Shown one piece after another: positions 26,278 through 30,206 of a stretch of DNA of 37,806 bases. The notes beneath the pieces were generated by a model. That model was not told the DNA's origin. It searched no databases and worked only from the letters and a program-made list of their open reading frames with translations. Each line of letters starts with the position of its first letter. The first letter of the stretch is position 1. Origin of the DNA: Burkholderiales bacterium (GTDB taxonomy: Bacteria; Pseudomonadota; Gammaproteobacteria; Burkholderiales; Usitatibacteraceae). The stretch covers positions 1-37,806 of the forward strand of contig JANYBL010000074.1 in the NCBI GenBank assembly GCA_025360815.1, read 5' to 3'. Both the position numbers and the translations under genes were made by a program.

Positions 26278-27199
26278 TGTTGCGCCGGGCCTCATTTAAC
26301 GCGTCGCAAACTTCCGCAACGCCATCAATAAATCGCGGCCCTTGACGCAAAATGTGATCGGCATTGATACCGTAGATTTGTTTATCTCTCGCCGCTTGGA
26401 TGCCCTCATAGCTGCTTCGTCGTGCTTCCACTTTGCCGGCCTGTTTCGCCGACTTTGGATACAAAATCACCTGCGGCTGCATCGCGACCATGGCTTCTCG
26501 TGATGGCGTAAAAACGAGGCTGGGCGCGGCTTTCCAAATATTTTCACCACCGCAAAGGGTAATCGCTTCACTAATGGCATGATCGCCGTTGATCGTCATT
26601 AGCGGCAATTCGCCAAGTTCAAAGAAGACGGAAATTTTGGGTTTATTGGCGTGGGATTTTTGTAACCCTAACGTGCGCGATTCAAACTGGTTGGCGGCTT
26701 TTTCTGCGCCTGCTGGACTGCCCGCGAGCTTGCCAATATCGCGCAACACCCGCGGCACATCGGCCATTTTTGCGACTTCTGCGGCGTAAACCGGGATACC
26801 CAAATCGCGCAAGCGTTGCAAATCTTTTTCGCGGTTGCCGCTCTTCCATGCCAGCACCAAATCGGGTTTGAGTGTCAGCAATAATTCAAACGAAACGCCG
26901 CTGAAATCAGCAACTTGTGGCAGCTTTTTCGCCTCAGGGGGGAAATCGCTGTATGCCGATACGGCAACCAGCGATGCGCCCGCCCCCGCTGCGTAAGCCA
27001 GTTCAACTAGTGACGGGGCGATGGCAATAATTCGCTTGGCGGGTGTCGTTAACGTGACCGTTTTGCCTGCATCATCGCGAACTGAAATCGCTGCCGGAAC
27101 ACCAGCATTGGCGGGCACTTCCGAACCATTTGCCGCCAAGAAGGCAGCCAATACTAGGGTTTTGCCAATTTCTCGCATGACGCGATGATTGCCGGTCAA
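26267..27199 (-). CDS. Periplasmic cobalamin-binding protein (BtuF-like, class III solute-binding protein)
   Basis: A 310-residue substrate-binding protein for an ABC importer, most like BtuF for vitamin B12. After a signal peptide (VLAAFLAANGSEVPANA) come the family patterns RIIAIAPSLVELAYAAGAG, VAVSAYSDFPPEAKKLPQV, LKPDLVLAWKSGN and ELGELPLMTINGDHAISEAITLCGGENIW. The assigned TTG start at 27199 overlaps the upstream stop as TTGA; the ATG at 27178 gives a more conventional signal peptide. No BtuC or BtuD permease genes are adjacent, so its partners must lie elsewhere. It is third in a run with two DAHP synthases. A heme or siderophore ligand is the main alternative. Confidence 0.85.
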   Translation of the reverse strand: MTGNHRVMREIGKTLVLAAFLAANGSEVPANAGVPAAISVRDDAGKTVTLTTPAKRIIAIAPSLVELAYAAGAGASLVAVSAYSDFPPEAKKLPQVADFSGVSFELLLTLKPDLVLAWKSGNREKDLQRLRDLGIPVYAAEVAKMADVPRVLRDIGKLAGSPAGAEKAANQFESRTLGLQKSHANKPKISVFFELGELPLMTINGDHAISEAITLCGGENIWKAAPSLVFTPSREAMVAMQPQVILYPKSAKQAGKVEARRSSYEGIQAARDKQIYGINADHILRQGPRFIDGVAEVCDALNEARRNIKN

Positions 27200-28164
27200 G
27201 CCGGGGCCTGCGCTTGCAGCGGTGCTTTTGTCGTCGCTTGGCTAGTAGCGCGCTCGTTTGCTTGATTGGCCACTTTTTTCGCCAACACCAGCCGCTTCAA
27301 ATAAGCCTCCCGCGCAATGGCGACATCTTCTAAAAAGTATGGCAGTTCTTCCAAGGTAATCGCCTGCGCCGCATCGACCAGCGCCTTTTTCGGCGCAGGA
27401 TGCATATCGACGAGCAGCATATTCGCGCCCGCAATCACGCCCTGCACGGCGACGTGAAAAATATCCAAAATCCCGTCCGGTGATGCGCCGCGAGCGCCAA
27501 CGGAATGTGACGGATCGACACAAACGGGCATGCGCGTCAGGCGATGCACCACCGGTACATGACCAAAATCGATCAAATTGCGATGCGGATCGCCAAAATT
27601 GGTTTTCATGCCGCGCAGTCCGAAAACGATTTTTGTATTGCCTTCAGATGCGCAATATTCAGCTGCCATCAGTGATTCATCGAGCGTAATACCAAAGCCG
27701 CGTTTTAGCAAAATCGGGTACGCATGTTGCCGCCCGACGGCTTTGAGTAGTTCAAAATTTTGCGTGTTGCGCGTGCCGATTTGCAACATCGCACCGGTCG
27801 CATTGCCGCTCTGGCGCATCGCGTCGTTGATTTCATCTATATGGGATTCACGCGTGACTTCCATCGAAATCACTTTGATACCGTATTTGCCCGCCAGCTC
27901 GAAAACCCACGGCAAACACTCGCGTCCCATGCCTTGAAACGAATACGGGCTAGAACGGGGCTTATACGCCCCCATTCGGGCACAAACTTGGCCATGCTCT
28001 TTTAAACATGCAAAGGTTTGCTCGACATATTCCTTGGTATCAACCGCGTTCAAACCGGCGAAAGTATGGAGATTGTCCTGACTGAAGGTTACGCCGTTAT
28101 AGCTGAAGGCGGTGTTGTGCTCGGACGCTTGATGGCGGCCGAGAATGCGTAGTTCAATTGCCAT
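27196..28164 (-). CDS. DAHP synthase, AroA(G)/type I-beta-like (3-deoxy-7-phosphoheptulonate synthase)
   Basis: A 322-residue TIM-barrel aldolase of the DAHP/KDO8P synthase family. The signature ARMGAYKPRSSPYSFQGMG is characteristic of I-beta DAHP synthases (Bacillus AroA type). LLKRGFGITLDESLMAAEYC and PVCVDPSHSVGARG carry further phosphate- and metal-site residues. It would join phosphoenolpyruvate and erythrose 4-phosphate at the first shikimate step. No fused chorismate mutase or ACT domain is seen, but a polar Ala/Gln/Thr tail of about 25 residues is present. It lies 51 bp after aroG, an unrelated-subclass enzyme for the same reaction. A different 3-deoxy-keto-acid product is possible and would need testing. 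Confidence 0.8.
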   Translation of the reverse strand: MAIELRILGRHQASEHNTAFSYNGVTFSQDNLHTFAGLNAVDTKEYVEQTFACLKEHGQVCARMGAYKPRSSPYSFQGMGRECLPWVFELAGKYGIKVISMEVTRESHIDEINDAMRQSGNATGAMLQIGTRNTQNFELLKAVGRQHAYPILLKRGFGITLDESLMAAEYCASEGNTKIVFGLRGMKTNFGDPHRNLIDFGHVPVVHRLTRMPVCVDPSHSVGARGASPDGILDIFHVAVQGVIAGANMLLVDMHPAPKKALVDAAQAITLEELPYFLEDVAIAREAYLKRLVLAKKVANQANERATSQATTKAPLQAQAPA

Positions 28165-28215: not shown

Positions 28216-29361
28216 CTATTCGGTGGCGGAGTGAATGGCTAACCGACGCGCCCGAACCGAGGCCGCCAAGCCGTTCAACAGCGTTTCGGTGTCGGCCCAA
28301 TTGATGCAAGCGTCTGTTACTGAAACGCCATATTCCGACGCTTTTCCATTCGCGATATCTTGGCGGCCCGCATTAATGTGACTCTCGACCATTACGCCTA
28401 TAATGCGCGGATCGCCCTTTGCCAATTGCACCCCAACATCAGCACCGACTTCCATCTGACGCTGATATTGTTTGCTTGAGTTGGCATGTGAAAAATCGAC
28501 CATCACGCGTGGCGCCAAGCCCGCCGACGCCAACTCCTTGCAGGTCGCATCTACGCTGGCAGCATCATAATTCGGTGTTTTTCCGCCGCGTAAAATGACG
28601 TGACAATCTTCATTACCAGCCGTCGAGACAATTGCTGAATGTCCCTGCTTGGTAACGGATAAAAAGTGGTGCGGCGCGGCGGCAGCTTTCATCGCGTCGA
28701 CTGCGATTTTGATATTGCCATCGGTGCCGTTTTTAAAGCCGACCGGGCATGACAATCCAGAGGCCAGCTGGCGGTGCGATTGGCTCTCGGTCGTGCGTGC
28801 GCCAATCGCCCCCCAGGCGATAAGGTCGGCAAAATACTGCGGCGAAATCAGATCAAGATATTCGGTGGCCGCGGCCAAGCCCAGTTCATTAATCGCCAGC
28901 AATAATTTGCGGGAAACGCGCAGCCCCTTGTTGATGTCGTAGCTTTCGTTCATATCTGGATCGTTAATAAAGCCCTTCCAGCCAACCGTGGTACGCGGCT
29001 TTTCAAAATAAACCCGCATCACGATCGTAAGATCAGGCTCTAGTGTGAGCCTGAGCGCCTGCAAGCGCTTGGCGTAATCCAACGCGGTGTCGTAGTCATG
29101 AATCGAGCACGGACCAACGATGACCAGCAATCGATCATCACCACCGTGCATAATCCGATGAATTTCATCTCGTGCGCGATAGACGGTGGCCGATGCTTTT
29201 TCGGTGCACGGAAACTCACGCATCAGATCACCGGGCGGCGCTAGTTCCTTAATTTCTTTGATGCGTAAATCGTCGGTGTTGTAGCGCATGGTTTCATCCT
29301 GGATTTGATGATGATCAGGGTCGTTGTTAACGACTTTAAGTTTCACAGTGACGGGAGACAT
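28216..29361 (-). CDS. aroG: DAHP synthase, AroG/AroF/AroH type (I-alpha)
   Basis: The first enzyme of aromatic amino-acid synthesis, 381 residues and colinear with E. coli AroG. Visible features are the metal-binding Cys in LVIVGPCSIHD, the substrate loop EKPRTTVGWKGFINDP, SVTKQGHSAIVSTAGNEDCHVILRGG, and VMVDFSHANSSKQ. The N-terminal arm (RYNTDDLRIKEIKELAPP), which in this family forms the feedback site, is present; which amino acid inhibits it cannot be read here. The start is ATG at 29361. About 64 bp upstream lie a strong intrinsic terminator and before it an aromatic-rich leader ORF, so expression is probably controlled by attenuation. Confidence 0.95.
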   Translation of the reverse strand: MSPVTVKLKVVNNDPDHHQIQDETMRYNTDDLRIKEIKELAPPGDLMREFPCTEKASATVYRARDEIHRIMHGGDDRLLVIVGPCSIHDYDTALDYAKRLQALRLTLEPDLTIVMRVYFEKPRTTVGWKGFINDPDMNESYDINKGLRVSRKLLLAINELGLAAATEYLDLISPQYFADLIAWGAIGARTTESQSHRQLASGLSCPVGFKNGTDGNIKIAVDAMKAAAAPHHFLSVTKQGHSAIVSTAGNEDCHVILRGGKTPNYDAASVDATCKELASAGLAPRVMVDFSHANSSKQYQRQMEVGADVGVQLAKGDPRIIGVMVESHINAGRQDIANGKASEYGVSVTDACINWADTETLLNGLAASVRARRLAIHSATE

Positions 29362-29430
29362 TATTGCATTCCTGGTGGGCTAACAATTTGAAATCGGAAT
29401 TTGCAGAAAAGTTGAAACAAAACACAAAAA

Positions 29431-29460
29431 AAACCGCCGGACTGTTTAGCCCGGCGGTTT
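29431..29460 (-). terminator. Intrinsic terminator in the aroG leader (attenuator)
   Basis: On the minus strand, a perfect 10-bp stem AAACCGCCGG/CCGGCGGTTT with a 10-nt loop is followed by a run of eight T. It lies after the leader ORF stop at 29483 and before the aroG start at 29361, so it would end transcription ahead of aroG unless the hairpin is prevented. The leader segment TTAGGCGG (complement of 29508-29515) can pair with CCGCC in the 5' arm plus CTAA in the loop, a candidate antiterminator. Confidence 0.85.
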
Positions 29461-29482
29461 TGGATTTGGTTTGAAACGCTTT

Positions 29483-29560
29483 TTACGCTTGCGTACAACC
29501 CTTCCAGCCGCCTAAGCTCGGAAAGAATGTATACCAAAAATAAAATGCAAAAATCATCAT
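29483..29560 (-). CDS. Aromatic-rich leader peptide of aroG (25 aa)
   Basis: A 25-codon ORF beginning with two Met codons contains FAFYFWYTFF at residues 4-13 and a further Trp at 19, so 9 of 25 residues are Phe, Tyr or Trp. Its stop is 22 nt before a strong intrinsic terminator, which in turn precedes aroG. This is the architecture of amino-acid biosynthetic attenuators such as those of trp and pheA: ribosome stalling at aromatic codons would favour an antiterminator. A small hairpin CCgAGC/GCTGG overlaps the codons just after the aromatic run and holds the candidate antiterminator segment in its loop. No clear Shine-Dalgarno is visible, and either Met may start the peptide. The frame is open further upstream into msrB. 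Confidence 0.75.
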   Translation of the reverse strand: MMIFAFYFWYTFFPSLGGWKGCTQA

Positions 29561-29633
29561 GTATTGATAGTAACAGGGGTTTTCAGGAATTGTCCAGCCT
29601 GAATACTTTTTTCGACGACATTTAGCTATGAGA

Positions 29634-30206
29634 TCAAGCGACGGAAGGTTTAAAAACCAATGCCGCTCCATTATTACACCAGCGTTGCCCGGTCGGTTGT
29701 GGTCCGTCAGTAAACATATGCCCGTGATGGCCGCCACATTTGGCGCAATGGTATTCGGTACGCGGGTAGATCAATTTAAAATCGCGTTTTTTATCAAAAG
29801 CGCCTGGCAAGGTGGTGTAGAAACTGGGCCAGCCCGTGCCGCTTTCAAATTTCATTTCTGAGGTATAAACCGGCAAATCGCAGCCCGCGCAGTGAAACAC
29901 GCCTTTACGTTTTTCATCGCCGTGCGGGCTGGAATTCGGGCGCTCGGTGCCTTCGTCACGCAGCACGTTAAACTGGGCAGAAGTTAGGCGTTTTTTCCAT
30001 TCCGCCTCGGATAATTCTAATTTTTCGATTTTGGTCATCGGAGCACTCGCTTGTTTAAGGGCAATCTTGACATTTTCAGTCTTTGGATCAGCTGGTGGTT
30101 TTTGTGCCATCGCGGTCTTTGGCTGGGTAGCCATCCCCGCGATGCCCGCCACGCCAGCCGCGCCGGCCGCACCAAATAATATTGATAAAAAATTTCTACG
30201 TTTCAT
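29634..30206 (-). CDS. msrB: Peptide-methionine (R)-S-oxide reductase MsrB, Tat-exported
   Basis: MsrB reduces the R-epimer of methionine sulfoxide in oxidised proteins. Residues 60-190 are the full catalytic domain: TERPNSSPHGDEKRKGVFHC, zinc cysteines C106/C109 (CAGC) and C154/C157 (CAKC), GTGWPSF, HHGHMFTDGP, and the catalytic Cys177 in QRWCNNGAALVF. It is preceded by a twin-arginine leader (KRRNFLS) with an Ala/Gly-rich hydrophobic stretch ending near TAMAQ. That predicts folded export by the Tat system and a periplasmic repair role. The start at 30206 has GGAG five bases upstream. No msrA or electron-donor gene is adjacent. Confidence 0.94.
   Translation of the reverse strand: MKRRNFLSILFGAAGAAGVAGIAGMATQPKTAMAQKPPADPKTENVKIALKQASAPMTKIEKLELSEAEWKKRLTSAQFNVLRDEGTERPNSSPHGDEKRKGVFHCAGCDLPVYTSEMKFESGTGWPSFYTTLPGAFDKKRDFKLIYPRTEYHCAKCGGHHGHMFTDGPQPTGQRWCNNGAALVFKPSVA

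Follow-up and report, generated by a model that had tools for sequence, protein, structure and literature searches.

A candidate ribosome-mediated attenuator with clustered Phe, Tyr and Trp codons upstream of DAHP synthase genes in Burkholderiales

The window, meaning the whole 37,806-nt stretch of DNA that was analysed (contig JANYBL010000074.1 of a Burkholderiales bacterium), carries a DAHP synthase locus on its minus strand, where the order is msrB, a promoter-like site, a leader open reading frame (ORF), a terminator hairpin with its T-run, aroG, and a second DAHP synthase gene. In order of transcription the features are as follows:

29634-30206, minus strand: msrB, upstream of the leader and on the same strand as aroG
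29567..29596, minus strand: candidate promoter, TGGACA, 18-nt spacer and extended -10 element TGT-TACTAT (9/12 matches, TG before the -10)
29483..29560, minus strand: leader ORF MMIFAFYFWYTFFPSLGGWKGCTQA plus stop codon, 25 codons with nine F/Y/W, with counterparts in relatives
29522..29551, minus strand: control codons F A F Y F W Y T F F; F/Y/W clusters also occur in the 50 curated members of the element (see below)
29508..29512, minus strand: candidate antiterminator strand GGCGG, within the leader ORF and beginning 12 nt on from the first nucleotide of the final cluster codon
29430..29461, minus strand: intrinsic terminator hairpin, 5' arm CCGCC at 29457-29453, 3' arm GGCGG at 29438-29434, -23.9 kcal/mol
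29426..29433, minus strand: T-run of eight T, the end of the terminator
28216..29361, minus strand: aroG, AroFGH-type (class I-alpha) DAHP synthase (NF006723, 588 bits, cut-off 568, residues 25-373)
27196..28164, minus strand: second DAHP synthase, Bacillus subtilis-like (I-beta), 51 nt downstream of aroG

The NCBIfam model starts at Met25 (29289), which may be the true start of aroG instead of the annotated ATG at 29361. The second DAHP synthase matches PF00793 above its cut-off (139.8 bits) and scores under the curated NCBIfam cut-offs (TIGR01361, 203 bits against 267.75); it is probably on the aroG transcript, and a relative of it occurs in 16 of the 17 loci of the window's family, being missing at L013. 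The first-pass annotation had named aroG as the target of an attenuator; aroG does lie downstream, and the gene arrangement suggests that both DAHP synthase genes of the cluster, and not just aroG, are probably under the control of the leader. Tandem aroG copies were seen in some genomes (G013, G015, G016, G017, and G218). At gathering thresholds, Rfam gave no match at the leader region; elsewhere in the window it placed a tRNA gene at 2668-2749 on the minus strand (52 bits).

An attenuator is expected to combine a short leader ORF holding clustered codons for the pathway's end products, an intrinsic terminator between that ORF and the structural gene, and an antiterminator that competes for the terminator's 5' arm. 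The ORF at 29483-29560 has the first of these, since nine of its 25 codons specify F, Y or W, eight of them within the cluster; the coordinates and counts given for it by the first-pass annotation hold, except for the stem of the hairpin. When the 500-nt upstream region in the window was dinucleotide-shuffled 3,000 times, no shuffle had seven aromatic codons in nine, and three had six aromatic codons in nine together with a terminator.

Upstream regions of aroG were taken from 31 near genomes including the window's own (29 with aroG), from 49 named loci, and from 220 genomes of the order, at least 169 of which had an aroG match at E 1e-90; for the last set, 80 regions were hand-picked among the matches listed, spread over genera and not random. 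Three loci with a partial aroG (L030, L078, and L079) were left out. An automatic rule (ORF of 9-45 aa, at least five F/Y/W in nine codons, terminator no more than 90 nt from the stop) recovered an aromatic leader ORF with a terminator in 47 of the 179 remaining regions, compared with 0/179 reverse complements and 1/3,580 dinucleotide shuffles. Removal of four second copies or repeat genomes (L031 and L033-L035) and addition by eye of seven loci that failed the rule (L003, L008, L050, L124, L128, L166, and L173) gave 50 curated members; L032, with a leader identical to that of L003, was not added.

Curated carriers make up 46 of 131 genomes and 11 of 32 families, and 85 genomes were counted as being without a leader. 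The element was found in 17 of 18 genomes of the window's family, in 1/5 of family f49, and in no fewer than two thirds of the genomes examined from each of nine others; the eighteenth genome of the window's family (G002) has GGCGG and the terminator at a locus cut by the contig end and was counted as being without. No leader was found among the genomes examined in 21 of the 32 families. The 47 named loci added, as curated carriers, Glaciimonas immobilis (L077), a MAG labelled Burkholderiaceae (L046), and the MAGs L050, L052, and L066, whereas named Alcaligenaceae, Methylobacillus, Aeromonas, and Shewanella loci gave none by the detector. In Shewanella L059 and L061, an aromatic ORF with a TTG start, LFAFDYWQRRFFIFGFR, lies ∼290-237 nt before the aroG match, with no terminator by the rule. 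At L120 (G139), positions 307-403 contain a terminator and flanking RNA (32.5 bits) in which no aromatic leader ORF was found; it was counted as being without and is perhaps a decaying copy.

An alignment (A1) and covariance model (R1) were built from 43 of the 50 members. R1 recognised L098, which is inside the count of 46/131, and L047, a named locus outside that count from a MAG labelled Gallionellaceae. In 35 of 35 carrier genomes run, chosen as carriers, the aroG leader was the best match to R1; other matches reached at most 36.9 bits among the matches listed, a range in or near which the weak aroG leaders of G209 (34.6 bits) and G149 (40 bits) also fall. The secondary aroG copies of Burkholderia multivorans, Caballeronia insecticola, and a Variovorax sp. 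had no leader in 600 nt.

The second expected component, the intrinsic terminator, lies between the leader ORF and aroG, with the leader stop codon 21 nt upstream of the hairpin and the annotated aroG ATG 64 nt past the T-run. It had been described as a perfect 10-bp GC-rich hairpin followed by eight T; the T-run is as described, and the stem differs slightly, having 14 pairs by the tool's count (eight G-C, five A-U, and one G.U). Across members the core reads ACCGCC...GGCGGT. The flanking pairs covary between A-T and G-C in relatives (n = 50), the pair inside the core being A-T in 30, G-C in 15, and other in five, and the pair outside it A-T in 46 and G-C in four; the terminator thus shows compensatory changes. 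The pattern ACCGCC-N3-25-GGCGGTTTTT has four matches at three places in this genome, so the stem is not a common terminator there.

The hairpin could, in principle, terminate msrB, with the aromatic ORF a chance frame; msrB does lie upstream on the same strand, and no leader was seen in the aroG regions of 21/32 families. Against this stand the rarity of ACCGCC...GGCGGTTTTT in the genome, the conservation of the ORF with GGCGG at a near-fixed spacing, and the position of the leader promoter between msrB and the hairpin. Moreover, tblastn found msrB in only eight of 34 member loci searched (those >2,000 nt, covering at most ∼1.5-2 kb upstream; the loci of 16 other members were too short), yet leader and terminator persist. 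Because msrB stands beside so few of the searched loci, a plain msrB terminator is unlikely, and we give this explanation a very low probability.

The promoter just mentioned is the sole promoter-like site on the minus strand from msrB to aroG and belongs to the leader. Transcription is predicted to start at 29560, which is the A of the leader ATG, so that the message would be leaderless; no Shine-Dalgarno sequence was seen in the 20 nt preceding the window's leader ORF. All 17 members of the window's family have the motif TGnTAnn[AT]T with its end 5-10 nt upstream of the leader start, vs ∼0.2% of shuffles, a count favoured by the partial choice of leader start codons on the -10 box, after which fifteen starts were set by hand. 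Outside that family, six of 33 members show the arrangement that predicts a leaderless message, and leaderlessness is therefore not general; G. immobilis (L077), for one, has the leader but no such promoter. Leaderless leader ORFs are described for attenuators of Sinorhizobium meliloti (trpL; PMC7298713) and Streptomyces lividans (PMC8079986). The predicted leaderless terminated message of ∼135 nt has the same layout as rnTrpL (PMC7298713), and the main product might accordingly be a short RNA or peptide acting in trans (rnTrpL/peTrpL-like), with attenuation of aroG secondary; peptide ends and RNA loops diverge quickly among the members, however, and such a role seems very improbable.

The third component is the antiterminator. 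The segment proposed for it, 29508-29515, reads UUAGGCGG and holds the conserved GGCGG (29512-29508), so that it had been correctly placed. This pentamer is a copy of the terminator's 3' arm, and 46 of 50 members have it downstream of the aromatic codons; counted from the first nucleotide of the final cluster codon, it starts at 14 nt in 26 of the 46 (range 8-20; window 12 nt). Shuffling the sequence that follows the cluster gave GGCGG at 14 nt in 0.6% and anywhere in 15%. Its frame relative to the ORF is distributed 36/8/2 across the three reading frames; therefore it is the RNA, not the peptide, that is conserved. In L028, which has no GGCGG, ACCGGCG stands instead and is complementary to the CGCCGGU of its own terminator. 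When the RNA free beside a stalled ribosome was folded before the 3' arm, at least four of the five arm bases paired with the ORF in 42/50 members. An antiterminator mutually exclusive with the terminator on its 5' arm is thus present as pairing potential, and its covariation is weak: the bases next to GGCGG and to CCGCC pair with each other in 28 of 46 members, where permutation gave a mean of 24.6 (p 0.023), and the inner helix favours own over swapped partners (p 0.0012). In these related sequences, both results lend modest further support to the antiterminator. The comparison of upstream regions of relatives that the first-pass annotation had called for thus recovered aromatic codons, terminator, and antiterminator strand, all conserved; the compensatory changes sought alongside them are present in the terminator and weak, among related sequences, in the antiterminator.

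The footprint of a ribosome reaches ∼12-13 nt forward, counted from the first nucleotide of the A-site codon. With a ribosome stalled at the last cluster codon, GGCGG would be the first RNA to emerge free.

The identity of the control codons bears on which amino acids are sensed. F is present in all 50 curated leaders, Y in 48, and W in 28, while in the window's family all 17 leaders contain F, Y, and W, with at least one Trp in the cluster. Joint sensing of Phe, Tyr, and Trp, as first proposed, is thus likely in the window's family and less likely outside it. The residue counts in the wider group would also suit a real attenuator that is effectively a Phe and Tyr sensor with incidental Trp codons, and the AroR leader of Corynebacterium glutamicum, with Phe-Tyr-Phe, reportedly responds to Phe and not to Tyr (PMC11802643); the 17/17 leaders with Trp clustered beside F and Y speak against it. 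This is a sub-case of the attenuator reading, with which its odds overlap, and it appears unlikely, if by no means negligible. L047 and, in family f43, L098 and L128 have few aromatic codons (YAHFTFP, FFFTFP) with GGCGG and terminator intact, as if the sensor were narrowing.

In many leader peptides, a P-x-A motif (codons CCN NNG GCG) recurs between the cluster and GGCGG. Such a motif after the cluster could be an arrest motif, in which case the leader peptide would sense a free amino acid or small molecule by nascent-chain arrest, as TnaC does, and not tRNA charging. However, members differ in which aromatic residues they carry and in what order, while aromatic character is kept, and GGCGG underlies much of P-x-A yet occurs in three frames, as if the RNA dictated the end of the peptide; arrest of this kind is accordingly given very little credence. 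Alternatively, P-x-A may reflect a GCC-GGC micro-hairpin or a pause at proline. Between close leader pairs, differences are most frequent at third codon positions (85, vs 45 at second and 36 at first), a point in favour of the attenuator, and codon differences are 64 synonymous vs 66 non-synonymous; within same-family clusters, 57 differences are synonymous aromatic, 55 change an aromatic to another aromatic codon, 53 change an aromatic to a non-aromatic codon, and 46 are non-aromatic. From these comparisons, the coding constraint on the peptide does not appear strong.

The reading as a tRNA-sensing attenuator fits less well as regards the distance to the stop codon and the protector of the antiterminator. 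GGCGG lies 27 nt from the stop codon in the window, >19 nt in 22 of 46 members, and ≤16 nt in 21 of 46; in those 22, the window included, a ribosome paused at the stop codon would not normally cover it. For a general 1:2 protector fold there was little excess over codon-shuffled controls: in naked RNA, GGCGG was paired upstream with a mean probability of 0.75 vs 0.70 in the controls, with 28 of 46 members exceeding their own control. In untranslated RNA the antiterminator probability exceeded 0.5 in only 6/46. GCC-N3-5-GGCGG micro-hairpins were counted in 32 of 46 members vs 6.0 expected, and their GCC, which a ribosome stalled at the last aromatic codon would cover, could be the protector; a recurring proline codon could also cause the GCC excess. 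No local hairpin at GGCGG was found in 10 of 46 members, among them the window and the related L003 and L008.

DAHP synthase control in Escherichia coli relies on the repressors TyrR and TrpR and on three isozymes. A search of the window's genome (G000) with E. coli TyrR gave five matches, all from residue 189 or later, that is, in parts shared with other activators of this type; full-length TyrR was not seen. Both recognised DAHP synthases of the genome, aroG and the I-beta-like gene, lie downstream of the candidate switch; the only other PF00793 protein (contig C8, 235.7 bits) scores like the presumed KDO-8-phosphate synthase group, and no type II DAHP synthase was found in the genome. On the same reading of PF00793 scores, the leader locus accounts for every recognised DAHP synthase in 26 of 35 leader-bearing genomes, and nine (G066, G073, G112, G132, G146, G149, G164, G180, and G208) have additional ones; by-eye comparison showed no correlation between Trp in the leader and the number of DAHP synthase loci. 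In the same genome, trpE (L188, contig C12) is preceded by a Trp-only leader ORF, MSFTKSSPWWRWQIWR, which has another ATG immediately upstream; no terminator passed the automatic rule there. The pheA gene sits behind another same-strand gene, with no aromatic leader in ∼300 nt upstream.

A comparative survey of proteobacterial attenuators was reportedly made by Vitreschak et al. in 2004. In the open-access literature, with subscription journals mostly outside that coverage, no betaproteobacterial attenuator before aroG was found. In that literature, the nearest known systems are AroR of C. glutamicum, upstream of aroF (Neshat et al. 2014, as cited in PMC11802643 and PMC4046766), and the uORFC-13-1 motif upstream of aroF in Acholeplasma (PMC8632094). 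Like the present element, AroR places an aromatic leader peptide before a DAHP synthase gene and acts through attenuation by ribosome stalling, the mechanism proposed here; unlike it, AroR is actinobacterial, carries Phe-Tyr-Phe only and reportedly responds to Phe and not to Tyr, whereas the present leaders are betaproteobacterial, with mixed F/Y/W codons and other RNA signals. The uORFC-13-1 motif, a putative Phe leader ORF with a terminator by that paper's own hypothesis, likewise precedes a DAHP synthase gene, but its 24 sequences come from the genus Acholeplasma and unassigned environmental DNA and it is restricted to Phe (PMC8632094). The S. meliloti trpL (PMC7298713) and S. lividans (PMC8079986) mRNAs start at the leader start codon, as is predicted here, but those leaders read Trp and other amino acids.

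The enterobacterial pheL/pheA attenuator (Rfam RF01859, Phe_leader) gave a weak full-length match to the window leader in a 280-base search (30 bits, E 0.0026); membership was rejected at a gathering threshold of 55 bits, and the gene and codon mix differ here. Unrelated sRNA families reached equally low E-values against the window leader (Atu_C9, 0.0022; AaHKsRNA41, 0.0025), so the match may be due to chance, and a 25-kb search of 20 other members gave no Phe_leader match at E up to 0.5. The kind of element is therefore already known; its mixed F/Y/W sensing, RNA signals, and lineage are new as far as we know.

Taken with its anatomy, conservation, and pairing potential, the element is very probably a ribosome-mediated transcription attenuator that gates entry to aromatic amino acid synthesis; the comparative tests support the attenuator proposed in the first-pass annotation, and from them we infer the mechanism, namely a leaderless start, stalling, antiterminated and terminated states, and dependence on aminoacyl-tRNA. 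Transcription would begin at the leader AUG. If charged Phe-, Tyr-, or Trp-tRNA ran short, the ribosome would stall in the FAFYFWYTFF codons and leave GGCGG free to pair with CCGCC as the terminator's 5' arm emerged, and with this antiterminator formed, RNA polymerase would continue into aroG and the second DAHP synthase gene. If all three charged tRNAs were plentiful, the ribosome would pass over GGCGG towards the stop codon, CCGCC would pair with the downstream GGCGG of the terminator, and transcription would end at the T-run.

A bolder version extends this to a single lineage-wide switch over betaproteobacterial shikimate entry, in which the message is leaderless, the leading edge of the stalled ribosome acts as the ruler that places GGCGG 14 nt past the last aromatic codon, the GCC under the ribosome is the only protector, and a shortage of any one tRNA opens all DAHP synthases; we put it forward tentatively, as somewhat less probable than its failure in at least one part.

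DAHP synthase acts as the valve of the shikimate pathway. All recognised DAHP synthases in the genome of the window appear to be preceded by one RNA switch that mixes Phe, Tyr, and Trp codons; if so, a single OR-type sensor would replace three repressor-isozyme pairs. The element provides a regulatory hypothesis for aroG in 11 of the 32 families examined of the order, and its near-fixed 14-nt spacing offers a natural series on how the leading edge of the ribosome sets an attenuator.
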